A DNA stretch of 51,941 nucleotides from Candidatus Cryptobacteroides intestinipullorum. Its GTDB lineage: Bacteria > Bacteroidota > Bacteroidia > Bacteroidales > UBA932. The notes beneath the pieces are model-generated. The model worked only from the letters and a program-made list of their open reading frames with translations. It ran no database searches and was not told where the DNA came from. Within the stretch, counting starts at the first letter, position 1. Every line of letters begins with the position of its first letter. Location of the stretch: NCBI GenBank assembly GCA_018711225.1, contig DVIP01000028.1, forward strand, positions 1 to 51,941, written 5' to 3'. A program made the position numbers and the translations under genes. This document shows positions 7,710 through 46,722 of this stretch, piece after piece.

Positions 7710-8717
7710 CTATAGGGTCTTTTTCTTTGGTTCAATATTATACTTGGATACATCCATACCGAACGAAAGTTTCATCTTCTCTACCAGAAGATCGATCTCG
7801 TTGAGGGATTTCCTTCCGAAGTTCCTGAACTTCATCAGCTCTGACCTCGAATAGGAAACCAGATCCGCGAATGTATCGATATCCGCTGCCTTCAGGCAAT
7901 TGTATGCCCTCACTGAAAGTCCCATGTCGGAAAGCTTGGTGAGAAGAAGATGTCTCATTCTGAGTGATTCTTCATCCAGCTCCTTGGAATCGGACTCTAC
8001 CGCACTTTCGAGAGAAAGCTTCTTCTCGTCAGTGAACAGCTTGAAGTGATAGATAAGGATGTTGGCGGCCTCCTGAAGAGCAAGCTTAGGAGTAATGGAG
8101 CCGTCGGTTATGATTTCAAGAGTCAGCTTTTCGTAATCGGTCTTCTGCTCGACACGCCAGTTGTCCACAATCCAGTTCACATTCTTGATAGGAGTGTAGA
8201 TGGCATCCACCGGAATGGTTCCGATAGGAGTATCGGAGTCGATATTCTCATCCGCAGGCACGAAACCGCGCCCCTTGCTGATATTGAGAGATATCTCCAG
8301 TTTCACAGACGGTTCGAGCGAACAGATATGCAGCTCAGGATTCAACACCTTGAAAGAAGACAATCCCTTGGAAATATCCTCTGCGGTAAACTCCTGTTTG
8401 CCGCTGATCACGATGTTTGCCACCTCGGAATCTACAGTATCGACCATTCTCTTGAACCTCACCTGCTTGAGGTTAAGAATAATATCCTGCATCCCCTCAA
8501 TCACACCCGGGATAGTAGCGAACTCCTGGTCCACACCCGTGATCTTGACTGAATTGATAGCAAACCCTTCCAGAGAAGACAATAATATGCGGCGGAGGGC
8601 ATTCCCGATGGTCTGTCCGTATCCTGGCTCAAGAGGCCTGAACTCGAACCGGCCGACGGTGTCCGTCCCTTCGAGCATTATCACCTTATCCGGTTTCTGA
8701 AATGCTAAGATTGCCAT
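7710..8717 (-). CDS. rpoA: DNA-directed RNA polymerase alpha subunit
   Basis: A 335-residue alpha subunit. The N-terminal assembly domain is recognisable from [21 protein letters not shown] and LSSLEGFAI. The C-terminal domain from about 250 has [14 protein letters not shown] and [15 protein letters not shown], which binds upstream promoter DNA and activators in other bacteria. Usual length for the family. It sits between rpsD and rplQ, as in most bacteria. Confidence 0.98.
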
Positions 8718-8745
8718 ATTATAATTTCTTTATTGGTGTTAACTG

Positions 8746-9348
8746 TTATTTGGAGTACAACTCGACGATAAGCTGCTCGTTGATATTCTCAGGAATCTCC
8801 TCCCTTACCGGAACATTGAGGTATTTTCCGGTGAGTGTCTTCGCGTCAAATTCAAGCCATGAATACTTCGGAGCCGAAGCCACGCTGTTCTGGATAACCT
8901 CAAGGCTCTTGGATCTCTCCCTTACCGCAATCACGTCGCCAGGCTTTACCTGAGCTGAAGGAATGTTGCAGACAGCACCGTTCCTGGTGATATGGCAGTG
9001 TGAGACAAGCTGTCTTGCAGCAGCCCTTGTAGGAGCGATACCGAGGCGGTAAACGAGATTGTCAAGACGTGACTCAAGGAGTGTAAGAAGGTTCTCACCC
9101 TTCTGACCCTTCATACGGGAAGCCTTCTCGTATGTGTTGCGGAACTGCCTTTCAAGAAGTCCGTAAGTGTATTTCACCTTCTGCTTCTCTCTAAGCTGCG
9201 TACCATACTCTGAAGATTTCTTGCGCTTTCTGGCCAGGCCATGCTGTCCCGGAGGATAATTCCTTTTTTCGAAATCCTTGTCTGTCCCGAAAATAGGCTC
9301 TCCGAACTTACGCGCGATTTTAGTAGTTGGTCCAGTATATCTTGCCAT
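8746..9348 (-). CDS. rpsD: 30S ribosomal protein S4
   Basis: A primary 16S rRNA-binding protein that nucleates the 30S body. [18 protein letters not shown] and [18 protein letters not shown] are typical S4 N-terminal sequences. The S4 RNA-binding fold starts at about residue 90 ([27 protein letters not shown]). The N-terminus lacks the zinc-binding Cys set, so it is the zinc-free form. In E. coli S4 represses the alpha operon; no equivalent site was identified here. Confidence 0.98.
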
Positions 9349-9373
9349 AGTAATTTTCCTTTATCAATAAAAA

Positions 9374-9766
9374 TTAAACTTTACGACGGCCTTTTGGTCT
9401 GCAGCCATTGTGAGGCATAGGAGTCACGTCAATGATTTCAGTGATCTCGATTCCGGCTCCGTGGATAGTCCTGATGGCAGACTCACGTCCGGCGCCAGGG
9501 CCTTTCACGTATGCCTTTACCTTGCGGAGACCGAGGTCGTAAGCTGTCTTGGCAGCATCGGCTGCAGCTACCTGCGCAGCGTACGGAGTGTTCTTCTTGG
9601 AACCCCTGAAACCGCTCTTGCCTGCTGAAGACCAGCTGATAACCTGTCCTATACTGTTGGTAAGGGTCACGATGACGTTGTTGAAGGTCGATGAAATATG
9701 AGCCTCTCCGTATGCGTCAACCTTTACAACCCTCTTCTTGTTTGATGTCGTTGTTTTCTTTGCCAT
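9374..9766 (-). CDS. rpsK: 30S ribosomal protein S11
   Basis: A 130-residue platform protein of the small subunit. Recognised from [15 protein letters not shown], the [20 protein letters not shown] segment and the C-terminus [18 protein letters not shown]. The N-terminus is short and Lys-rich. It lies between rpsM and rpsD in the normal alpha-operon order. Confidence 0.98.
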
Positions 9767-9779
9767 AATTCATCTCCCG

Positions 9780-10157
9780 TTATTTGGTTGCCTTCTTCTT
9801 GTTGGCAACTGTTTTCTTCTTACCCTTCCTTGTACGGGCGTTGTTCTTGGTGCTCTGTCCGCGTACCGGAAGACCGATACGGTGACGGATTCCCCTGTAA
9901 CATCCGATATCCATCAGACGCTTGATGTTCATCTGGATAGAAGAACGAAGCTCTCCTTCTATCTTGTATTCGGTCGCAATAACATTACGGATGCCCGCGA
10001 TCTGCTCGTCATTCCAGTCACCGACTTTCGTGTCGAAATCGATGCCGAGACCAGACAGGATTTTTCTCGCTGAGCTGCGGCCAATCCCGAAGATATAGGT
10101 CAGACCTATCTCTCCCCTTTTGTTGTTTGGTAAATCAACTCCGGCTATTCTTGCCAT
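9780..10157 (-). CDS. rpsM: 30S ribosomal protein S13
   Basis: A 125-residue head protein that contacts P-site tRNA and forms bridges to the 50S subunit. [29 protein letters not shown] and the C-terminal [17 protein letters not shown] are characteristic. A basic Lys-rich end follows. Normal length and position, after rpmJ and before rpsK. Confidence 0.98.
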
Positions 10158-10192
10158 AATTATCTTGCTTTATTATTATACAATTTAACAGA

Positions 10193-10309
10193 TTATCCCT
10201 GACGCATCTTGAATTTAGGATTCTTTTTGCAGATTACGTAAAGACGGCCTTTGCGCTTTACGATCTTGCAGTCCTCGCTGCGTTTCTTTATGGATGCTTT
10301 GACTTTCAT
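10193..10309 (-). CDS. rpmJ: 50S ribosomal protein L36 (below ORF-track cutoff)
   Basis: Reading the minus strand from the ATG at 10309 gives a 38-residue protein beginning [20 protein letters not shown] and ending NPKFKMRQG, an unmistakable L36. The full zinc-binding set of three Cys and one His is not present (only two Cys remain and the late His is Lys/Phe-rich sequence), so it is a zinc-independent form. It lies between infA and rpsM, its usual place. Confidence 0.96.
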
Positions 10310-10321
10310 TTTCGTAAACTT

Positions 10322-10540
10322 TTATTTGTACCTGAATGAAATCCTTCCTTTGGTCAAATCGTAAGGTGACATTTCGACCCTGACCCTGTCTCCAGGCAGA
10401 ATCTTGATGTAGTGCATTCTCATCTTACCTGAAATATGAGCCAGAATCACATGGCCGTTTTCCAGCTCGACCTTAAACATTGCATTCGGCAGTGTCTCTA
10501 TTATGACACCTTCCTGTTCTATTGCTGACTGTTTCGGCAT
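10322..10540 (-). CDS. infA: Translation initiation factor IF-1
   Basis: A 72-residue OB-fold protein that occupies the ribosomal A site during initiation. Signature segments are [51 protein letters not shown] and the end KGRISFRYK. Normal length. The order map-infA-rpmJ-rpsM is usual for Bacteroidota. Confidence 0.98.
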
Positions 10541-10552
10541 TAAAATATCACT

Positions 10553-11329
10553 TTAAAATCCAACACCAGACTTTTCAATATAATCAAATGTCGACAGAAC
10601 CTCAGGAACGCCTTTTCTGACAACAACCGTAAGTTCGAAATGCGCCGATTTCCTGTGATCCGCCGTATGTACCTCCCAACCATTTCTTGCCAGATACACA
10701 CCGCGTGTCCCTGCATTGATCATCGGTTCGATGCAGATGGTCATCCCGTCTATCAGCTTCGGGCCTCTGCCCGGCCTGCCGTAGTTTGGGACTCCCGGAT
10801 TCTCGTGCATCTCCCTTCCGATCCCGTGTCCTTCAAGTTCACGTACTACAGAGAAACCGAACGATTCGGCATACGATTGCACCGCGTGTCCTATATCGCC
10901 GATCCTGTTCCCGTCCACCGCCTTCGCTATTCCCCGGTACAGGGATTCCTTGGTCACTTCCAGAAGTTTTCTGGCTTCCTCATCCACTTCCCCGACCGGA
11001 AAAGTGTATGCGGAGTCACCGTTGTACCCCTTGTACAGAGTGCCGCAGTCCACCGATACTATGTCCCCTTCCTTCAGCACATAGTCTGAAGGAAAGCCGT
11101 GCACCACGACATCATTTACAGAAATGCAGAGAGCGGCAGGAAAGCCTTCATAACCTAAGAAGCTTGGTATAGCTCCGTTGTCCCGGATATAGGTCTCTGC
11201 CACCCTATTCAACTCGAGAGTTGTCACACCTGGGGCGACAGCCTTACCGACCTCAGCCAATGTCTTGGATACGAGAATGGCATTCTCGCGCATCAGCGCT
11301 ATTTCTTCTTCTGTCTTAGGCTTTACCAT
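10553..11329 (-). CDS. map: Type I methionine aminopeptidase
   Basis: A 258-residue cytosolic metalloenzyme that removes the initiator Met from nascent proteins. The pita-bread fold metal ligands are visible: Asp in VSVDCGT, Asp in NGDSAYTF, His in GHGIGREMHENP, Glu in CIEPM and the final Glu in HFELTV. It has no N-terminal zinc extension, so it is the short type Ia. Located between secY and infA, 12 bp before infA, so it is presumably co-expressed with the ribosomal genes. Confidence 0.97.
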   Translation of the reverse strand: MVKPKTEEEIALMRENAILVSKTLAEVGKAVAPGVTTLELNRVAETYIRDNGAIPSFLGYEGFPAALCISVNDVVVHGFPSDYVLKEGDIVSVDCGTLYKGYNGDSAYTFPVGEVDEEARKLLEVTKESLYRGIAKAVDGNRIGDIGHAVQSYAESFGFSVVRELEGHGIGREMHENPGVPNYGRPGRGPKLIDGMTICIEPMINAGTRGVYLARNGWEVHTADHRKSAHFELTVVVRKGVPEVLSTFDYIEKSGVGF

Positions 11330-11349
11330 AACATCAAAGATTACTGAAA

Positions 11350-12687
11350 TTACATTCCTGAACGTCCTTTCAGACGGCCTGTCTTCATCAGTCCGTCATA
11401 GTGACGCATAAGCAGATGACTTTCTATCTGCTGGAGAGTATCCAGGACAACACCCACAAGAATCAGCAGTGAAGTACCGCCGTAGAAACTTGCGAACTGG
11501 TTGTTCACACCCAACAGCATTGCGAATGCCGGCAGGATGGCGATCAGTGCGAGGAAAACCGAACCTGGGAGAGTAACCCTCGACATGATGGTGTCGAGAT
11601 ACTCGACGGTCTTCTTTCCAGGCTTGACGCCAGGGATGAACCCTCCGTTCTGCTTCAACTGCTCGGCCATCATGGTCGGATTCACAGTGACAGCAGTATA
11701 GAAATATGTGAAAATCACAACAAGCAGTCCGAAGATAAGGTTATACCAGAATCCTGTATAATTGCTCAAAGTGGCTGCAAGACCTCTGGTGGCATCGAAC
11801 TGAGAGAAAATCAGAGGGAAGAGCATGAGTGCCTGCGCAAAGATGATAGGCATCACACCTGCCGCATTGATTTTCATAGGGATGTACTGGCGGACTCCGC
11901 CGTACTGCTTGTTCCCGACAATCCTCTTCGCATACTGTACAGGCACCTTCCTTACACCCTGTACGAGGGCGATGGCTGCCACGAACACGAAGAACAGGAT
12001 TACGAGTTCCACAATAAGCAGAAGCACGCCGCCGGCGGTGTTGTTCACCTTTTCTCCGATTTCAGCCGTAAGGGCATACGGGAGACGGGCGATGATACCG
12101 ACCATGATTATGAGGGAAATACCGTTTCCGATACCCCTGTCGGTAATCCTTTCACCGAGCCACATGACGAACATGGTGCCGCCTATCAGGATAATCGTGG
12201 AGACGAAGTTGAACATGAAGTTGCTCCATCCCAGATTATGAACCGCCAGGAAAGCGCTCTCCGGTATCTGGTTATGGAGGGCAGCCATGTAGGCAGGTCC
12301 CTGGATGCAGAGGATGGCGATGGTCAGATATCTGGTCATCTGGTTCATCTTCCGTCTTCCGCTTTCACCTTCCATCTGGAGTTTCCTGAAGTAAGGCACA
12401 AACACACCGAGAAGCTGGATGACAATGGATGCCGAGATATAAGGCATCACACCCAGCGCAAAAATTGAAGCGTTGCCGAAGGCTCCTCCAGAAAACATGT
12501 TGAGAAGGCCGACAAGACCTTCCTGCGTGTTGTCCTGAAGATTGGCCAGCTGGGCCGAGTCTATGCCCGGGAGCACGATGAACGAGCCCAGACGATAAAC
12601 CAGCAGCAAAAGAATCGTATACACGATTCTCTTGCGCAGTTCTTCAATCTTGAAGATGTTTCTGATAGTCTGTATAAACTTCTTCAT
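11350..12687 (-). CDS. secY: Protein translocase channel subunit SecY
   Basis: A 445-residue ten-helix inner-membrane protein forming the Sec channel. The N-terminus FKIEELRKRIVYTILLLLVYRLGSFI covers helix 1 and a plug follows (PGIDSAQLANL). Family motifs include GIGNGISLIIMVGI and MMAEQLKQNGGFIPGVKPG. Ends with HYDGLMKTGRLKGRSGM, the cytosolic tail. Its ATG overlaps the rplO stop by one base (TAATG), a sign of translational coupling. Confidence 0.98.
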   Translation of the reverse strand: MKKFIQTIRNIFKIEELRKRIVYTILLLLVYRLGSFIVLPGIDSAQLANLQDNTQEGLVGLLNMFSGGAFGNASIFALGVMPYISASIVIQLLGVFVPYFRKLQMEGESGRRKMNQMTRYLTIAILCIQGPAYMAALHNQIPESAFLAVHNLGWSNFMFNFVSTIILIGGTMFVMWLGERITDRGIGNGISLIIMVGIIARLPYALTAEIGEKVNNTAGGVLLLIVELVILFFVFVAAIALVQGVRKVPVQYAKRIVGNKQYGGVRQYIPMKINAAGVMPIIFAQALMLFPLIFSQFDATRGLAATLSNYTGFWYNLIFGLLVVIFTYFYTAVTVNPTMMAEQLKQNGGFIPGVKPGKKTVEYLDTIMSRVTLPGSVFLALIAILPAFAMLLGVNNQFASFYGGTSLLILVGVVLDTLQQIESHLLMRHYDGLMKTGRLKGRSGM

Positions 12688-13139
12688 TATTTCTCAATTG
12701 TAGTTGCTGTTCCACCCTGGGCCTCGATCTTGGCGATGGCACTCTTGGAGAATGCGTTGGCTGACACTTCCAGTTTGGCTGTCAGTTCACCGTTGCCGAG
12801 AATCTTGACCAAAGCAGTCTTGGATACGATTCCGTTCTGCTTGAGAAGCTCTACATTGATAGCGGTCACTCCAAGTTTCTCAGATATGGTCTGAAGATCG
12901 GAAACATTGAGAGGAATGTATTCCACCCTGTTAATGTTCGTGAAACCGAACTTCGGAAGACGCCTCTGGATAGGCATCTGGCCGCCTTCAAAACCTATCT
13001 TGCGGGAATAGCCTGAACGGGCCTGGGCACCTTTGTGACCACGGGTAGAAGTCCCGCCATGTCCGGAACCTTCACCACGGCCGATCCTCTTCTCTCTTCC
13101 TTTGGAACCCTTTGCAGGTTTCAATTCGTGCAATTTCAT
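12687..13139 (-). CDS. rplO: 50S ribosomal protein L15
   Basis: A 150-residue protein of the large subunit. MKLHELKPAKGSKGREKRIGRGEGSGHGGTS is the conserved basic Gly-rich N-terminus, followed by GFEGGQMPIQRRLPKFGF. Its stop codon shares a base with the secY start. Position after rpmD is normal for the spc block. Confidence 0.98.
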   Translation of the reverse strand: MKLHELKPAKGSKGREKRIGRGEGSGHGGTSTRGHKGAQARSGYSRKIGFEGGQMPIQRRLPKFGFTNINRVEYIPLNVSDLQTISEKLGVTAINVELLKQNGIVSKTALVKILGNGELTAKLEVSANAFSKSAIAKIEAQGGTATTIEK

Positions 13140-13157
13140 TTCTAGATTCCTCCCTAA

Positions 13158-13337
13158 TTAAATTTCCTCTACTTTCACAAGGTGGAGAACTTTCTGCAAC
13201 ATGCCGTTGGTCACAGGTGTAAGCTCTACCTCGACAGTCTGGTGCATCTTGCGGAGTCCGAGACCCTGCAGGTTGGCTATCTGCCTCTTTGAAGCACCGT
13301 TCTTGCTCTTGATCTGGGTTATCTTGATTTTTGCCAT
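13158..13337 (-). CDS. rpmD: 50S ribosomal protein L30 (absent from ORF track)
   Basis: Translation from the minus-strand ATG at 13337 gives 59 residues: MAKIKITQIKSKNGASKRQI, then the L30 core NLQGLGLRKMHQTVEVE and the end VLHLVKVEEI. It was missed by the track's length cutoff. It sits between rpsE and rplO, 13 bp after rpsE, in the usual order. Confidence 0.96.
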   Translation of the reverse strand: MAKIKITQIKSKNGASKRQIANLQGLGLRKMHQTVEVELTPVTNGMLQKVLHLVKVEEI

Positions 13338-13350
13338 TCGTCAGTCCTCC

Positions 13351-13869
13351 TTAACCTTTAAACACTCTGCTCATAGGAATACCGCGAAGTCCGGCAATCG
13401 TATAGGCATCCCTCATCTCGGACAAAGCCGCTACTGTAGCCTTTACGAGGTTGTGAGGGTTTGAAGAACCCTTGGACTTGGCCAGGACATTCTGGATACC
13501 CACTGACTCGAATACGGCACGCATCGCACCACCGGCCTTCACACCGGTACCCGGAGCTGCAGGCTTCATGAATACCCTTGCACCGCCGAACTTGGCTTCC
13601 TGCTCATGAGGAATAGTCTTGTTGAGTACAGGGATCTTCACAAGATTCTTCTTGGCATCCTCTATACCTTTTGATATAGCCGTAGTGACCTCGTTAGCCT
13701 TTCCAAGACCATAACCTACGACACCGTTCTCGTCGCCTACCACCACGATGGCTGCGAAACTGAAGTGACGGCCGCCCTTGGTGACCTTGGTCACCCTTTT
13801 TACGGCTACGAGCCTGTCTTTAAGCTCAAGATCAGTCGTCTTTACTCTTTTAACATTTGTATTTGCCAT
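13351..13869 (-). CDS. rpsE: 30S ribosomal protein S5
   Basis: A 172-residue small-subunit protein involved in decoding fidelity and mRNA unwinding. The double-stranded-RNA-binding-like domain begins with [23 protein letters not shown], and [21 protein letters not shown] and [15 protein letters not shown] follow. Normal length and position between rplR and rpmD. Confidence 0.98.
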
Positions 13870-13876
13870 AGTCTTT

Positions 13877-14239
13877 CTAGAATATTAGGCCACCTTCACG
13901 GGCAGCTTCAGCCAAACTTTTAACTCTACCATGATAAAGGTAACCTCCACGGTCGAAAGATATGGTGGTGATACCCTTAGCGATACTGCGCTCTGCAATA
14001 GCCTTTCCTACCAGGGCTGCAGCTTCCTTGCCGCTCTTTCCCTTGCACTCTGCTGCAAGAGCCTTGTCATTCGATGCGGCAGCCGCGAGTGTAATACCCT
14101 TTGTGTCATCCACGACCTGCACGTAAATCTGCTTGTTGCTTCTGAAGACTACCATCCTTGGCCTTTCAGCAGTACCGTTGACAACCTTGCGGATGCGGTA
14201 ATGGATTCTTTTTCTTCTTTCTATCTTATTCAATGCCAT
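13877..14239 (-). CDS. rplR: 50S ribosomal protein L18
   Basis: A 120-residue 5S rRNA-binding protein. The basic start [21 protein letters not shown], then [20 protein letters not shown] and the C-terminal [24 protein letters not shown] are diagnostic. Located 14 bp after rplF and 7 bp before rpsE. Confidence 0.98.
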
Positions 14240-14253
14240 AACTCAATCTCCTA

Positions 14254-14814
14254 TTATTTAGCACCTGCTGACTTGCCGGCCTTGCGGCGGATCTGTTCAC
14301 CGACAAACCTGATACCCTTACCCTTGTAAGGTTCCGGCTTACGCATAGAACGAATCTTGGCGGCTACCTGGCCGACAAGCTGCTTGTCAGCGCTCTTGAG
14401 AACCAGGATAGGGTTCGCACCTTTCTTCACAGGCTCTGCCTCTGCCTTCACTTCTGACGGAAGCATGAAATGCACGTCATGTGAGAAACCGAGGGAAAAT
14501 TCAAGGATCTGGCCTTTGACTTCGACACGGTAACCGACACCGATAAGCTCCTGTCTGATAGTATATCCTTCTGAAACACCGACTACCATATTGTGCACAA
14601 GCGCACGGTAAAGTCCGTGAAGAGAGCGGTGTCTCGGATTGTCGGTAGGACGAGTCAATTTAACTTCATTTCCCTCTACGGTCACAGTAATGTCGGAATC
14701 CACTTTCTGACTGAGTTCGCCGAGAGGTCCTTTAACCTTGACAACATTGCCGGGGAGCACTTCTACAGTGACCTTGGCAGGAAGGTGTACAGGCAATTTA
14801 CCAATTCTTGACAT
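14254..14814 (-). CDS. rplF: 50S ribosomal protein L6
   Basis: A 186-residue protein with two repeated alpha/beta domains, near the sarcin-ricin loop. MSRIGKLPVHLP, VKGPLGELSQ, and the C-terminal KIRSMRKPEPYKGKGIRF are conserved L6 sequences. A short basic tail (RRKAGKSAGAK) completes it. Normal position. Confidence 0.98.
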   Translation of the reverse strand: MSRIGKLPVHLPAKVTVEVLPGNVVKVKGPLGELSQKVDSDITVTVEGNEVKLTRPTDNPRHRSLHGLYRALVHNMVVGVSEGYTIRQELIGVGYRVEVKGQILEFSLGFSHDVHFMLPSEVKAEAEPVKKGANPILVLKSADKQLVGQVAAKIRSMRKPEPYKGKGIRFVGEQIRRKAGKSAGAK

Positions 14815-14832
14815 TATTTTATACTTTATAGA

Positions 14833-15228
14833 TTAATAAACATAACACAAAATCTCGCCTCCGACATTCATTTCCTTGGCTTCCTTGTCAGTGATGACAC
14901 CCTTGGAAGTGGAGATGATGGCTATACCGAGACCGTTGAGGACTCTCGGCATGGTTTCCACACCGGCGTATTTCCTGAGACCCGGCTTTGATACGCGCTC
15001 GATCTTCTTGATGGCAGCGGTCTTGGTCTGCGGATGATACTTGAGAGCGATCTTGATAGTGTTTACAGGCTGTCCTTCCACTACCTTGTAGCTGAGGATA
15101 TAGCCCTTTTCGAAAAGAATCCTTGTGATGGCCATCTTCATCTTGGAAGAAGGAACTTCCACGATTTTCTTCCCGGCCATGTAGGCGTTGCGGATTCTTG
15201 TAAGATAATCTGCTATTGGATCAGTCAT
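14833..15228 (-). CDS. rpsH: 30S ribosomal protein S8
   Basis: A 131-residue central-domain protein of the 30S subunit. It begins MTDPIADYLTRIRNAYMAGKK and ends GVITDKEAKEMNVGGEILCYVY, the usual S8 termini. The track start at 15273 adds 15 residues (MDIGHDSAGFKNNKK) not found in S8, so ATG 15228 was chosen. In E. coli S8 autoregulates the spc operon by binding near rplE; no such site was confirmed here. Confidence 0.97.
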   Translation of the reverse strand: MTDPIADYLTRIRNAYMAGKKIVEVPSSKMKMAITRILFEKGYILSYKVVEGQPVNTIKIALKYHPQTKTAAIKKIERVSKPGLRKYAGVETMPRVLNGLGIAIISTSKGVITDKEAKEMNVGGEILCYVY

Positions 15229-15304
15229 TTTTTTGTTGTTTTTAAAACCGGCACTGTCGTGCCCGATATCCATTATAAATAATCAAAGTACTTGTATTCA
15301 GTCA

Positions 15305-15574
15305 TTACCAGCTGGCTTTCTTTACGCCTGGGATGAGGCCGTTGCTTGCCATCTCACGGAACTGGATACGGCTTATGCCGAACTTGCGCATATATCCTTT
15401 CGGTCTTCCTGTGAGTGAGCAACGGTTGTGAAGCCTGCACGGGCTGGAGTTTTTAGGGAGCTTGTCAAGGGCTACCCAGTCTCCGGCCTCTTTGAGAGCC
15501 TTCCTCTTTTCAGCGTATTTGGCAACCAGTTTTGCACGCTTCACTTCACGTGCCTTCATTGATTCTTTTGCCAT
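15305..15574 (-). CDS. rpsN: 30S ribosomal protein S14, long zinc-free form
   Basis: An 89-residue head protein. [21 protein letters not shown] and the end [23 protein letters not shown] are typical. It is the long type without the CxxC-CxxC zinc knuckle; only CRLHNRC remains. Lies between rplE and rpsH. Confidence 0.98.
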
Positions 15575-15585
15575 ACCGTCCTCCT

Positions 15586-16188
15586 TTAGTTGTTATGTTT
15601 CTTGAAAGGCAGACCGAACTCACGCAAAAGGGCGTGTGCTTCTTCATCCGTCTTCGCCGTAGTTACAAATGTGATCTCCATGCCGAGAATCTTGGATATC
15701 TTGTCGATATCAATCTCCGGGAAGATGATCTGCTCCTTGATTCCGAGGGTATAGTTGCCCCTGCCGTCCATCTTCTCAGAGATACCGTTGAAGTCCCTGA
15801 TACGAGGGAGGGAGATACGGATAAGCCTCTCGAGAAATTCGTACATCCTGGTAGAACGGAGAGTCACCTTCACACCGATAGCATTTCCCTTACGGAGCTT
15901 GAAGTTGGAGATATCCTTTCTGGAAAGGGTGGTTATCGCCTTCTGTCCGGCTATGGCAGTGAGTTCCTGCTGTGCATTCTCCACGAGCTTCTTGTCATTA
16001 GTAGCGTCGCCCACACCCTGGTTGATGGTGATTTTCACGAGCTTCGGAACCTGCATGACAGTAGTGTACGAGAACTCCTTCATGAGCTTAGGGACGATAG
16101 TCTCCTTATATAACTTTTTCAGCGTCGGAACATATCCTGCAGGAACTGCAGTGTTCACGGCCTCTGTTGTCTTCTTAGTCTTTGCCAT
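15586..16188 (-). CDS. rplE: 50S ribosomal protein L5
   Basis: A 5S rRNA-binding protein of the central protuberance. The L5 domain shows [40 protein letters not shown] and [18 protein letters not shown]. At 200 residues it is about 20 longer than E. coli L5, due to an N-terminal extension ([20 protein letters not shown]). Its ATG overlaps the rplX stop by one base. Confidence 0.97.
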
Positions 16189-16505
16189 TATTTGATCTCC
16201 TCTCCAGATTTTTTAGAGTAACGGACTTTCTTTCCATCCACCATCTTGTAGCCGATTCTTGTAGGACCGCCCTTCGCAGGGTCTACCAGCTGAAGATTGG
16301 AAATATGGATTCCTGCCTCTTGTTTAACAATACCGCCCTGAGGATTTTTCGCATTGGGTTTGGTATGCTTGCTTACCATGTTGATACCTTCCACGATAGC
16401 GCGGTCCTTTGAACGGACAACCTCAAGCACCTTGCCGGTCTTTCCCTTGTCATTGCCGGCATTGACATAGACTGTATCGCCTTTTTTGATATATATCTTC
16501 TTCAT
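16188..16505 (-). CDS. rplX: 50S ribosomal protein L24
   Basis: A 105-residue assembly-initiator protein near the exit tunnel. The KOW motif is visible in [25 protein letters not shown], followed by [14 protein letters not shown] and [14 protein letters not shown]. Normal length. Translationally coupled to rplE by a one-base overlap. Confidence 0.98.
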
Positions 16506-16516
16506 AACGACTTCAA

Positions 16517-16882
16517 TTAAAGGACCTCAGGTGCCAGTGAAACGATCTTCATATAGTTTTCACGGAGTTCCCTTGCCACAGGGCCGAAAATACGTGTACC
16601 GCGGACCTCTCCCTGATTGTTGAGGAGGACACAGGCATTGTCGTCGAAACGGATATAGGAACCGTCCGGCCTGCGGATTTCCTTCTTGGTACGGACTACT
16701 ACAGCCTTGGATACTGAACCTTTCTTGGCATCCCCGCCAGGGATTGCACTTTTCACGGCGACCACGATCTTGTCACCGACCTTTGCATAACGGCGGCGCG
16801 TACCTCCCAGTACACGGATACAAAGCACTTCCTTTGCTCCACTGTTGTCTGCCACCTGTAAACGTGTTTCCTGCTGTATCAT
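16517..16882 (-). CDS. rplN: 50S ribosomal protein L14
   Basis: A 121-residue protein at the subunit interface. [27 protein letters not shown] and the closing [31 protein letters not shown] region match L14 throughout. It starts 2 bp after the rpsQ stop. Confidence 0.98.
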
Positions 16883-16884
16883 TG

Positions 16885-17139
16885 TTATTTGACTTTTTCT
16901 ACAATTTCTACTAATCTCCAGTTCTTAGACTTGCTCAACGGACGGGTCTCCATGATGCGTACTGTATCGCCCTCACTGCACTCGTTCTTTTCGTCATGAG
17001 CAACGAACTTGGTGGTCTTTTTTACGAACTTGCCGTAAATAGGATGCTTTTCTTTAGTTGCTACCGCAACGACTATGGACTTGTCCATCTTGTTGCTGAC
17101 CACGACTCCTATCCTTTCCTTGCGAAGATTTCTTTCCAT
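16885..17139 (-). CDS. rpsQ: 30S ribosomal protein S17
   Basis: An 84-residue OB-fold primary 16S rRNA binder. [40 protein letters not shown] and [19 protein letters not shown] are characteristic. Normal order rpmC-rpsQ-rplN. Confidence 0.98.
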
Positions 17140-17151
17140 CAGACTGAAATT

Positions 17152-17346
17152 TTAGTTCTGTTTTTCCTTTTCTGCCAGGATCGTCATCATTCTGGCGATA
17201 TCCTTCCTGGTCTTGGCGATTTTAGACGTATCCTCAATAGGAGAAATCGAGTGGTTTATCTTCATGGTGTCAAGAGCCGCCTTCTCCGCATCTATGCGGT
17301 CACGCAGATCTGTGATTGACATTTCGCGAATTTCAGATGCTTTCAT
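17152..17346 (-). CDS. rpmC: 50S ribosomal protein L29
   Basis: A 64-residue two-helix protein at the tunnel exit, part of the docking site for SRP and trigger factor. MKASEIREMSITDLRDRIDAEK and the helical remainder fit L29. It is 15 bp after rplP and 12 bp before rpsQ. Confidence 0.96.
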   Translation of the reverse strand: MKASEIREMSITDLRDRIDAEKAALDTMKINHSISPIEDTSKIAKTRKDIARMMTILAEKEKQN

Positions 17347-17361: not shown

Positions 17362-17781
17362 TTATTCGACATAGTCTCTACGTACAACAAATTTCGTGGT
17401 GACAGGAAGTTTCTGTGCGCCAAGACGGAGAGCCTCTTTGGCAATAGCCATAGGAACACCTTCAGCCTCGATAAGCACGCGCCCGGGAGTTACAGGGCAT
17501 ACAAATCCCTCAGGATTACCCTTACCTTTACCCATACGCACTTCGGCAGGCTTCCTGGTATATGGCTTGTCAGGGAATATCCTGATCCATATCTTTCCCT
17601 CACGCTTCATGTAACGCACGACAGCCTGACGCGCAGCCTCGATCTGACGACCGGTAAGCCAGCAATTCTCCAGGGTCTTGATGCCGAAAGAACCGAACAC
17701 AAGCTGATTGCCTCTCTGGGCAAGGCCTTTCATACGGCCTTTCTGCTGCCTTCTGAATTTTGTTTTCTTCGGTTGTAACAT
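17362..17781 (-). CDS. rplP: 50S ribosomal protein L16, first gene of its transcription unit here
   Basis: A 139-residue protein that organises the A-site tRNA region. [48 protein letters not shown] and [12 protein letters not shown] are highly conserved. In most bacteria rpsC lies directly upstream. Here the upstream side is a 370-bp non-coding region with a clear promoter, then an unrelated divergent gene. So rplP heads its own operon, and the upstream half of the S10 block is elsewhere in the genome. Confidence 0.98.
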
Positions 17782-17819
17782 TGTCTATTACTTTTAAAAT
17801 TTACTTCAACTTCCTTAAA

Positions 17820-17860
17820 TAATTGAGTATCAGCTGGTTGGGCGGACTTATCCTCAATTA
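17820..17860 (-). promoter_or_regulatory. 5'-leader hairpin of the rplP operon mRNA
   Basis: On the minus strand TAATTGAG pairs perfectly with CTCAATTA across a 25-nt loop containing GTCCGCCCAACCAGC. It falls at the predicted extreme 5' end of the transcript, about 40 nt before the rplP start. It could stabilise the mRNA or be a ribosomal-protein feedback site; neither is shown by the sequence alone. Confidence 0.45.
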
Positions 17861-17868
17861 AGGGACTG

Positions 17869-17898
17869 CAAAGATAGTCAATTTTTCTGAATTGCAAA
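17869..17898 (-). promoter_or_regulatory. Promoter of the rplP-rplQ operon
   Basis: Minus strand: -33 element TTTG (17895-17898), an 18-bp spacer, then the -7 element TATCTTTG (17869-17876). This matches the Bacteroidota primary-sigma consensus TTTG/TAnnTTTG. Transcription should start near 17862, giving a leader of about 80 nt. A weaker -7-like TACTTTCG lies further up at 18017-18024. Confidence 0.75.
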
Positions 17899-18098
17899 TA
17901 TTTTTTCAATAAAATCCGCAATTTTTCGACCGGAAAATCGAATGGTTAAAAAAGGGAAAATCACACAGTTACCGACAATGTTGAAATTTTTTCCGCTACA
18001 ATTTCGACCGACGGCGCGAAAGTACAAATACGCATGTCCGCAGACAGATTCCCGGCCTGCAGACCCCGGACTCCACTCCGATTTGTCAGGATTTTTCA

Positions 18099-18106
18099 TA
18101 AATTTG
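18099..18106 (+). promoter_or_regulatory. -7 promoter box for the DUF4294 gene
   Basis: TAAATTTG matches the Bacteroidota -7 consensus; the start would be near 18113. A TTTG at 18082 is too close (13 bp) to be a standard -33 element. The position argues for a coding start downstream of 18113, not at the track start 18034. Confidence 0.5.
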
Positions 18107-18153
18107 CAATTCTGTTTCTGAACCAGTACCGAGTGAAACACGCCGGACAAATA

Positions 18154-18810
18154 ATGCTCGCCATCGCCGTTGCCGCCGTCCAGTCCGCGGCATGTATGCT
18201 GCATGCCCAGACGCCGGACAGACCGGAAGACATGTTCATGCGCTTCATGGTGGAAGGCAGCGATACGGTATTCACCGACGAACTGCCGCCCGCCCGCGTA
18301 TATTCGAGGATGCCGCGCCAGAAGGGACGCGAATGGAGGAAATACTACAGACTCGTCCACAATTTCAGCAAGACATACCCTTACGCCCTGGCAGCACGGC
18401 ATCTGGTACACGAGGTGGACAGCACCATAGAGGCAGACCATCTGAAACGTGCGAAAAGAGACAGGTTCATAAGCAGCAAGCAGAAAGAGCTGTTCGATGA
18501 CTTCGAAAATCCCATGCGCAATCTCACCGTTTCGCAGGGAGCCCTGCTGATGAAACTGATAGACAGGGAAGTAGGAAAATCGTCCTATCTCATCATAAAG
18601 GACTACAAGAACGGCATGGCCGCAGGATTCTGGCAGGGGATAGCCCGGATGTTCGGGACGGATCTCAAGAAACCGTATGACCCGGAAGGAGAGGACAGGC
18701 CCATCGAAGAACTCGTGACACTTTGGGAGACAGGCCAGTTCGAAAGCCTCTACTTCTCGCTGTTCTGGAAAGATCCTCCGGAAATAGAAATCCCGTCGAA
18801 ATACAGATAA
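18154..18810 (+). CDS. Exported DUF4294 family protein
   Basis: About 218 residues of unknown function, typical of Bacteroidota. A hydrophobic N-terminus (MLAIAVAAVQSAACMLHAQ) looks like a signal peptide. The conserved region includes WRKYYRLVHNFSKTYPYA, LTVSQGALLMKLIDREVG and MAAGFWQGIARMFGTDLKKPYDP. The track start at 18034 adds 40 residues of low plausibility and precedes the predicted transcription start. A GTG at 18133 is an alternative. Its last 61 bp overlap the 3' end of lpxH on the other strand. Confidence 0.82.
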   Translation: MLAIAVAAVQSAACMLHAQTPDRPEDMFMRFMVEGSDTVFTDELPPARVYSRMPRQKGREWRKYYRLVHNFSKTYPYALAARHLVHEVDSTIEADHLKRAKRDRFISSKQKELFDDFENPMRNLTVSQGALLMKLIDREVGKSSYLIIKDYKNGMAAGFWQGIARMFGTDLKKPYDPEGEDRPIEELVTLWETGQFESLYFSLFWKDPPEIEIPSKYR

Positions 18811-43357: not shown

Positions 43358-43663
43358 TCAGACCTTGATTTCAACCTCAACGCCACTCGGAAGCTCCAGC
43401 TTCATCAGGGCATCCACTGTCTTCTGTGTCGAATCATAGATGTCAAGCAGACGGCTGAATGAGTTGAGCTCAAACTGTTCGCGGGACTTCTTGTTTACAA
43501 AAGTCGAGCGGTTCACAGTGAAAATCTTCTTGTCAGTAGGAAGCGGAATGGGACCATTCACACGAGCTCCTGTAGAAGCCACTGTATCAACGATCTTCTT
43601 GGCAGACTTGTCTACCAGCATGTGATCGAATGATTTTAGTTTAATTCTTATCTTTTGGCTCAT
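43358..43663 (-). CDS. rpsJ: 30S ribosomal protein S10
   Basis: A 101-residue head protein, also the NusE antitermination factor. [53 protein letters not shown] and the end [11 protein letters not shown] are conserved. Normally it opens the S10 operon with rplC next. Here the next feature downstream is a promoter and a tRNA, and rplC is missing. Confidence 0.98.
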
Positions 43664-43696: not shown

Positions 43697-45808
43697 TTAT
43701 TCGTCCTCATCTACGTTCTTGTAGCCGCTCTTCTCGACAATCTCCTTGGCGAGGTTTGCAGGAACTTCAGCATAGTGGTCGAATGTCATTGTGCTGGTAG
43801 CACGACCGGATGATATGGTCCTCAGGACAGTCACATAACCGAACTGCTCAGCGAGAGGGACGAATGCCTTCACAATCCTGGCACCGGTAGTGGAATCCAT
43901 TGCAGTCACCTGACCACGACGGCGGTTAAGGTCACCGACAATATCACCCATATAGTCTTCCGGAGTCACAACCTCGAGTGACATGATAGGTTCGAGAAGT
44001 ACCGGTTTTGCCTTAGGGCACGCATGACGGAATGCCTGGCGGGCACAAATCTCGAATGAAAGCTGGTCTGAGTCCACAGGGTGGAACGAACCGTCCTTCA
44101 ATGTCACCTTGAGTGAAGGAACCTCATATCCTGCGAGAACACCGTTTGCCATTGCAGACTTGAAACCTTTCTCGACAGAAGGAATGAACTCCTTAGGAAC
44201 ATTACCTCCCTTCACCTCGTCAATGAACTGGAGTCCGGTAACGCCCTCGTCTGCAGGTCCGATTTCTACTATGATATCTGCGAACTTACCGCGGCCACCG
44301 GTCTGCTTCTTGAAGACTTCACGGTGCTGTACGGTAGCTGTAATGGCTTCCTTGTAGTTCACCTGAGGTGCACCCTGGTTGATTTCCACACCGAATTCAC
44401 GGCGGAGACGGTCAACGATGATGTCCAGGTGAAGCTCACCCATACCGCTGATGACGGTCTGGCCTGTCTCGTGATCTGTCTTGACAGTGAATGTAGGGTC
44501 TTCCTCCGCAAGTTTCGCAAGTGCGATTCCGAGCTTGTCAAGATCCTTCTGGGTCTTAGGCTCTACTGCAAGTCCGATAACCGGATCCGGGAATTCCATT
44601 GATTCGAGAGTGATAGGATGATCCTCCACGCAGATGGTATCACCGGTACGGAGATCCTTGAAACCTACAGCCGCGCAGATGTCTCCGGCCTCTACAAACT
44701 CGATAGGATTCTGCTTGTTCGAGTGCATCTGGTACAGACGTGCGACACGCTCTTTCTTGTCAGAACGGGTATTGAGCACGTATGAACCTGCATCCAGACG
44801 GCCTGAATATGCCCTCAGGAAAGCCAGACGGCCTACGAACGGGTCGGTAGCAATCTTGAAGACCAGAGCGCAGAACGGCTCCTTGGCATCCGGCTTACGC
44901 TCTTCCTCATCTCCTGTCTTTGGATTCACGCCCTTGACTGCACCCTTGTCGAGCGGAGAAGGGAGATAACGCATGACAGCATCGAGAAGGAACTGAACGC
45001 CCTTGTTCTTGAATGAAGAACCGCAGCATGCAGGCACTATGGACATGTCGATGGTAGCCTTCCTCAAAGCCGTGATGATTTCGTCCTCGGAAATGGAATC
45101 AGGATCCTCGAAGAATTTCTCCATCAGGGACTCGTCATATTCGGCAGCGGCCTCTACAAGCTTTTCCCTCCATGCGGCGACATCTGCCTTCATGTCTTCC
45201 GGCACATCGGTCACCTTGTAGTTCACGAGCTCTTCACTGCTGTCATATATCAGGGCCTTGTTGGCGATAAGGTCCACAATACCCTGGAATTTGTCCTCAG
45301 CACCGATAGGCAGGCAGATAGGTACAGCCCTTGCTCCGAGCTTTTCCTTGATCTCTTCGACCACAGCCAGGAAATCCGCGCCTACACGGTCCATCTTGTT
45401 CACGTATGCAATCTTCGGGACACCGTACTTGTCAGCCTGACGCCATACCGTCTCGGACTGAGGCTGTACGCGGCCTACTGCGCAGAAAGTGGCTACTGTT
45501 CCGTCCAGTACACGGAGAGAACGCTCCACCTCCACAGTGAAATCCACGTGGCCCGGAGTATCAATCAAGTTAATCTGATAAGTATCCCCTTTATAATGCC
45601 AGAAAGCGGTAGTAGCGGCTGAAGTGATGGTAATACCACGCTCCTGCTCCTGGACCATCCAGTCCATAGTGGCAGCACCTTCGTGAACCTCCCCTATCTT
45701 GTGGGTCTTCCCAGTATAATAAAGGATTCGCTCTGAAGTTGTAGTCTTACCGGCATCAATGTGGGCCATAATACCGATATTCCTGGTGAATTTAAGATCT
45801 CTTGCCAT
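43697..45808 (-). CDS. fusA: Elongation factor G
   Basis: A 703-residue translocation GTPase. The G domain shows [10 protein letters not shown] (P-loop), [11 protein letters not shown] (switch I), DTPGHVDF and NKMDRVGAD. Domains II-V are complete, with [19 protein letters not shown] and the C-terminal [19 protein letters not shown]. Normal place between rpsG and rpsJ. Confidence 0.98.
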
Positions 45809-45830
45809 TTGTTCTTAACTTAATTGGGGA

Positions 45831-46307
45831 TTAGAAACGGAAGTGGGCAAATGCCTTGTTGGCCTCTGCCATCCTGTGCATATCTTCTTTTCTCTTGTAT
45901 GCCGCACCCTCGCAGTTATAGGCAGCGATGATTTCGGCACAAAGTTTTTCTGCCATCGAGTGGCCGGAACGCTTGCGGGCGAATACGATCATATTCTTCA
46001 TAGAAAGTGAAATCTTCCTTTCCGGACGAACCTCGGTAGGCACCTGGAAGTTAGCTCCTCCGATCCTGCGGCTTTTCACCTCTACCTGAGGTGTCACATT
46101 CTCGAGAGCCTTCCTCCAAATATCCAGAGGAGCCTTGTCAGAATCTTTCATCTTCTCGCCTACCATGTCAATGGCATCGTAAAAAATAGAATACGCGATA
46201 CTCTTCTTCCCCTGCAACATAAGATTGTTCACGAAACGTGTAACCATCACATCGTGAAACTTTGGATCTGGAAGTAGAATCCTCTTCTTAGGCTTCGCTT
46301 TTCTCAT
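45831..46307 (-). CDS. rpsG: 30S ribosomal protein S7
   Basis: A 158-residue protein that nucleates the 30S head and lies at the mRNA exit. [30 protein letters not shown] and [22 protein letters not shown] are typical. 22 bp before fusA in the str operon. Confidence 0.98.
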
Positions 46308-46338
46308 TGTTCTGAAAAATTAAATAGGTGGTAAATGA

Positions 46339-46722
46339 TTACTTCTTAGATTTCTTTGGTCTCTTGGCACCATAAAGGGAGCGGGACTGTGTCCTTCCCT
46401 CGACGCCTGCCGTATCCAAAGCTCCTCTAAGGATGTGGTAACGTACACCCGGGAGGTCCTTCACACGACCGCCTCTTACAAGCACGATAGAGTGCTCCTG
46501 GAGGTTGTGGCCCTCGCCCGGAATGTAGGCATTCACCTCTTTGGAGTTAGTAAGACGTACACGGGCAACCTTACGCATTGCTGAGTTAGGTTTCTTAGGT
46601 GTAGTAGTGTACACACGCACGCATACGCCCCTCCTCTGAGGGCATGCATCCAACGCGCGAGACTTGCTCTTGACTTCGATAACCTCGCGCCCCTTGCGAA
46701 CTAATTGTTGAATTGTAGGCAT
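46339..46722 (-). CDS. rpsL: 30S ribosomal protein S12
   Basis: A 127-residue decoding-centre protein. [13 protein letters not shown] and the two loops [13 protein letters not shown] and [11 protein letters not shown] carry the wild-type Lys residues whose change gives streptomycin resistance elsewhere, so no such mutation is present. First gene of the str operon. Confidence 0.98.

Follow-up and report, generated by a model that had tools for sequence, protein, structure and literature searches.

The window, the whole stretch of 51,941 nucleotides analyzed here, is contig 186 of a Bacteroidales MAG that totals 2.44 Mb, is fragmented into 187 contigs and is 86.8 percent complete. Candidatus Egerieousia and Candidatus Coprenecus are among its named near relatives. 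The window contains a long block of ribosomal-protein genes headed by rplP and detached from the upstream part of the S10-spc-alpha cluster (Table 1). The order rplP, L29, S17, L14, L24 was confirmed in relatives, while the names of the other genes in the block were read from translations. A divergently oriented DUF4294 gene occupies the place in which rpsC would be expected, and the same gene is the neighbor of rplP in most loci of the genus. Between the two genes, we located a promoter, a predicted leader with an inverted repeat at its 5' end, and two conserved sequence stretches.

Table 1. Genes and sequence elements of the window, with their positions.
Feature	Positions	Strand	Basis or remark
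rpmC, rpsQ, rplN, rplX, rplE, rpsN, rpsH, rplF, rplR, rpsE (block after rplP)	7710..17346	-	reading frames
rpmD, rplO, secY, map, infA, rpsM, rpsK, rpsD, rpoA (block, continued)	within 7710..17346	-	reading frames
rplP (uL16), head of the detached block	17362..17781	-	PF00252, E 5e-51; start codon 17781
Conserved AAAGTAATA, few bases before the rplP start codon	17786..17794	-	most genus leaders and several other genera
Predicted 5' leader of the rplP mRNA	17782..17866	-	placed by the -7 box; likely start within about 17868-17862
Conserved core GCCCAACCAGCUGAUACUCAA, containing the near-invariant YAA-N5-UGA-N3-UCA	17823..17843	-	alignment of 91 leaders
5'-terminal hairpin UAAUUGAG (17860-17853) / CUCAAUUA (17827-17820)	17820..17860	-	exact inverted repeat
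-7 box TATCTTTG (consensus TAnnTTTG)	17869..17876	-	18 bases after TTTG
-33 box TTTG	17895..17898	-	exact match
DUF4294 gene	18034..18810	+	PF14127, E 1e-45
rpsJ (uS10), with rpsL-rpsG-fusA (43697-46722)	43358..43663	-	PF00338, E 1.8e-33; neighboring frames

We compared the arrangement of the cluster with that in related genomes. The genes rplC, rplD, rplW, rplB, rpsS, rplV and rpsC sit together on another contig (C170), away from rplP, and rpsJ has stayed with rpsL-rpsG-fusA, so that the cluster is present in three pieces in the genome of the window. In none of the genus loci examined did we find rpsC directly before rplP, and many genera of the family likewise lack rpsC at this position. The adjacency is kept in the loci fetched from other families and, within the family, in those of genera g32, g33, g34, g45, g46 and g49. 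As several genera of the family thus still have rpsC next to rplP, the break arose within the family, with further movement later in some genomes. In many genomes of the genus (for example G013, G029, G076 and G091), rplC is found on the contig and strand of rplP, with a gap of ~10-18 kb between rpsC and rplP as calculated from match positions, and in G016 the rplC and rplP pieces are 500 kb apart. Given the fragmented and incomplete MAG, the split could be seen as an assembly error and the leader as a chance feature of a single genome. We consider the probability of this to be negligible: rpsC is absent before rplP in every genus locus examined, most of which have the same DUF4294 neighbor, rplC lies a short distance upstream on one contig in many genomes of the genus, and 22 of 61 genomes contain the core of the leader. 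An assembly artefact is excluded, and the split of the operon is real. In three genus genomes, rplP was matched in two pieces (G003:C99:4716-5086, G005:C83:13902-14319, G150:C80:537-873), and a portion of the N-terminal region was absent or lay in a different frame, which could be due to either genuine change or sequencing error. G145 (C68, C85) has an additional, more divergent rplP with 59 percent identity, and rplP of G123 (C14) contains an in-frame TAG; both are likely the result of contamination or error.

The original prediction had placed a TTTG at -33 and a -7 box, with an 18-bp spacer, directly upstream of rplP. Both boxes and the spacer are found exactly as described, with TATCTTTG preceding the rplP start codon by about 88 bases, and they form the sole match to TTTG-N17..19-TAnnTTTG and thus the unique full promoter in the window. 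Shuffled versions of the window contain on average 0.31 such matches, or 0.09 at the exact spacing of 18. The housekeeping promoter consensus of Bacteroidota consists of TTTG at -33 and TAnnTTTG at -7 (PMC7366714). The rplP promoter has the two boxes of this sigma-ABfr type at the usual distance of about 18-19 bases, and with no difference from it represents an ordinary member. TAnnTTTG precedes rplP in 100 of 100 genus loci without adjacent rpsC and in all 36 of the split loci that belong to other genera, 33 of which have the exact TTTG as well. Across genus loci, an exact TTTG at a spacing of 17-20 is present in 83 of 115, with a few genomes counted twice. In two sets of loci where rpsC adjoins rplP (0 of 61 and 0 of 21), we found no full promoter within 200 bases of rplP. 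Promoter and split go together across the family. The original statement that the promoter shows independent transcription of the second half of the operon is too strong, but a conserved promoter that is absent where rpsC adjoins suggests that the rplP block has a housekeeping promoter of its own from which it is transcribed, with a putative start site a few bases downstream of the -7 box.

To describe the leader, we aligned 91 unique genus sequences from the -7 box onward, which is nearly gap-free for 60 columns. Here, a core composed of YAA, five bases, UGA, three bases and UCA, then UU, is embedded in variable columns. U41 and A49 are invariant, and A34, G42, A43, U47 and C48 are conserved at 93-99 percent. 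Fifty-three leaders including that of the window, referred to as class A, carry CCCAACCAGCUGA or close variants, and the others mostly contain UAA where class A has CAA. Each of the above-mentioned 22 genomes has the class A pattern CCCAACCRRYTGANNNTCAA once, always in the leader just upstream of rplP, with a duplicated contig accounting for its presence twice in one genome; the reversed pattern, used as a control, has zero matches in the 61 genomes. In at least five genus members (L012, L022, L023, L056, L066), the promoter is retained with a much shortened or different leader in which the conserved element is apparently mostly lost, and the leader is thus dispensable there.

We next consider the hairpin that had been proposed at the predicted mRNA end. 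Its inverted repeat, TAATTGAG/CTCAATTA, is exact and in place. The 89-nt leader of the window folds no better than shuffles (z -0.40). Genus leaders as a group do fold better (mean z -1.56, SEM 0.11, n=91), with values of -1.08 for class A and -2.22 for the remaining leaders, and of -0.09 upstream of the promoter and -0.16 between the hairpin and the start codon as controls. As the hairpin of the window alone is unremarkable, the evidence that it matters is comparative. The inner five pairs (UUGAG/CUCAA) hold in 49-52 of the 53 class A leaders, and the outer three cannot form in 35, 28 and 16 of them. The stem shows 11 double-change cells in class A versus 5.9 (SD 1.8) expected, and by reading of the alignment about four independent compensations affect the inner stem (G-C to A-U in one clade and in L064, C-G in L058, A-U to G-C in L043); the overall percentage paired is not above that of shuffles. 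Covariation among relatives, on which the original prediction had staked the hairpin, is thus seen for the inner five pairs but does not support the outer three, and the complete 8-bp stem, as first drawn, is largely confined to close relatives. Since the 8-bp inverted repeat immediately follows a promoter, it could also represent a DNA operator for a transcription factor that acts on the initial transcribed sequence. We find this highly improbable, because conservation does not extend to the outer half of the repeat, the core is asymmetric, and both compensations and folding energy point to RNA pairing. An alternative helix, UUG-A-GG/CC-CAA, which is mutually exclusive with the UUGAG/CUCAA stem, is kept in 91 percent of cells and hardly varies, so that covariation provides no test of it. 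Genus-wide, not one pair is significant against a simulated null, as the pairing register of individual folds changes from clade to clade. Pairings differ in other clades and genera, so that what is conserved is a ~55-nt leader rather than the first-noted hairpin alone.

Thirteen leaders from other genera share a common architecture, in which a 6-bp helix and a single bulged base are followed by another short helix, CUGA/UUGA and a UMAG-like stretch. This hairpin is located at the position of the core in the genus of the window. The 13 leaders contain 19 double-change cells versus 7.1 (SD 2.3) and reach a covariation score of 0.464 versus 0.203 (SD 0.035); none of 500 shuffles attains either value, and slid partners score far lower. 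Folding is again specific to the leader (z -1.79 versus about -0.1 in flanks). The covariance model R1 yields 15 strong matches (E below 1e-5) in 120 genomes of the family, all just upstream of rplP and 2 of them outside the seed, and two further ones in a separate collection, L232 (E 1e-8) and L234 (1.7e-6). Within the genus of the window, R1 matches are weak (22.8 bits at best), with six of the seven at E below 1 falling on the rplP leader, and the genome of the window has no match. Homology therefore rests on common position, spacing and core, and indeed the UUG/CAA helix of class A equals the 6-bp helix of the other genera in positions and spacing. Equal helix geometry and R1 matches at the rplP leader together suggest, with moderate confidence, that the two groups are forms of one diverged leader. 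In a wider search of the order, R1 matched 0 of 198 genomes; this sample holds few genera in which R1 works and is thus weak evidence of absence. Other genera of the family (L138, L140, L141, L143-L145, L169, L170 and similar) have longer rplP leaders (about 130-170 nt) that lack a strong R1 match. Near the start codon, several of them carry ACGTTA...AACGT-like repeats, and these longer leaders are possibly a second leader type.

The displaced rplC block was analyzed for comparison. In the genus, rplC has its own TATATTTG-type -7 box (L003:8380-8680 on contig 170; L185-L214) and a 5'-terminal hairpin, CCGCAA/UUGCGG, which shows compensatory changes in relatives. A stretch similar to ATTAATTAAACAAACCA is conserved ahead of the rplC start codon. 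The 5' region of rplC may represent a separate candidate leader. In the comparison with rplP that had been suggested, the rplC hairpin is unrelated in sequence, and we rejected a common leader for both blocks, as each has a 5' hairpin but the sequences differ. As rplC mRNAs of the genus also begin with a hairpin, a generic role is possible for that of rplP, and the main rival explanation is that it stabilizes the 5' terminus and slows the decay of an abundant mRNA, with no ligand involved. It would fit with this that the folded segment starts a few bases past the -7 box in most genus leaders, that CC near the leader 5' end can pair with GG at the end of this segment, and that varying pairing registers suit the need for any hairpin. 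A stabilizer would however need neither a near-invariant core at fixed spacing nor a bulged hairpin conserved across genera, and we judge it rather unlikely.

The most specific ligand idea that we tested is an autoregulatory site for S8 (uS8) based on mimicry of 16S rRNA helix 21, the mechanism by which S8 regulates the spc operon in E. coli (PMC10931766). The window contains AAGUC...GAUACU, the exact S8 core found in the 16S rRNA of genus member L147, and rpsH belongs to the rplP operon. Both halves of the core are present in only 5 of 91 leaders, however, and other genera lack it. In the S8 register, which conflicts with the conserved UUGAG/CUCAA pairing, no flanking helix is formed; in the window sequence, from which this was judged, the bases beside the core do not pair. 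With neither a conserved core nor a flanking helix in the rRNA register, the S8 idea did not hold up, and we rejected it as very unlikely. No rRNA mimic was identified; R1 has no match up to E = 1 in the 23S loci L148, which includes part of 16S, and L165, and the core pattern is not found in four rRNA-bearing loci. By inspection, we also rejected a GUAA element as in Firmicutes S4 leaders, as only its AA is constant, and a kink-turn, as the 5' strand has no NNN-GA side in most leaders.

We compared the leader to known systems. Rfam 15 identifies only tRNA in the window at the gathering threshold, and a search of six loci, of which five contain rplP leaders, gave no convincing match up to E = 10. 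Among 20 newer r-leader motifs, none is located upstream of rplP (Eckert and Weinberg 2020, PMC7247131). With respect to Rfam 15 and to these motifs from the openly licensed literature, the rplP leader is new. Known r-leaders share its placement, and several of them do not mimic rRNA (PMC7247131). The S4 and L13 motif leaders come from the same bacterial class, Bacteroidia, and are likewise small hairpins in 5' UTRs of ribosomal-protein genes, and the S4 motif is apparently also without rRNA mimicry (PMC7247131). The S8-controlled spc operon of E. coli has the same gene set including S8 and a site on the mRNA, whose rRNA counterpart the window core resembles, but this site is inside the operon at rplE, whereas ours would be at the mRNA 5' end and has no conserved S8 core. 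Control of spc outside E. coli-like bacteria has been described as unknown (PMC10931766). As in the L4-regulated S10 leader of E. coli, a structured 5' end precedes a long ribosomal-protein operon; unlike it, the rplP block does not encode L4, and the leader is about 85 nt long, with no terminator-like hairpin and no intrinsic terminator found on its strand.

The rplP leader is located in the predicted 5' UTR of a ribosomal-protein operon and is specific to it, and its structure covaries strongly in other genera and moderately, in the inner stem only, in the genus of the window. Position, specificity, structure and the conserved core are traits of r-leaders, and on balance we favor the leader being a new candidate cis-acting ribosomal-protein leader with an autoregulatory function. 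The mRNA of the rplP block would be made from its own promoter and begin with the conserved structured leader. A protein encoded in the operon, when in excess over rRNA, would bind the folded 5' end at the hairpin plus the UGA-N3-UCA core, and binding may lower translation or stability of the message. The new autoregulatory site put forward in the original prediction is thus plausible as a regulatory leader, given covariation and specificity, but with S8 as a very unlikely ligand. In the genus leader, UUGAGG could pair either with the downstream CCCAA, which corresponds to the hairpin position in other genera, or with CUCAA. It is conceivable, if quite improbable, that this constitutes a two-state RNA switch in which a ribosomal protein picks the state. 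If true, this would be a new leader family that controls the detached uL16-to-alpha block and that evolved as the S10-spc-alpha cluster broke up.

In our best reading, the leader arose with the split. The S10-spc-alpha cluster is among the most conserved bacterial gene orders. In this one family, a natural break in it goes together with the appearance of a promoter and of a conserved structured leader on the detached half. The rplP leader represents a defined candidate, and thus a way to watch how ribosomal-protein control may be rebuilt after an operon has been cut.
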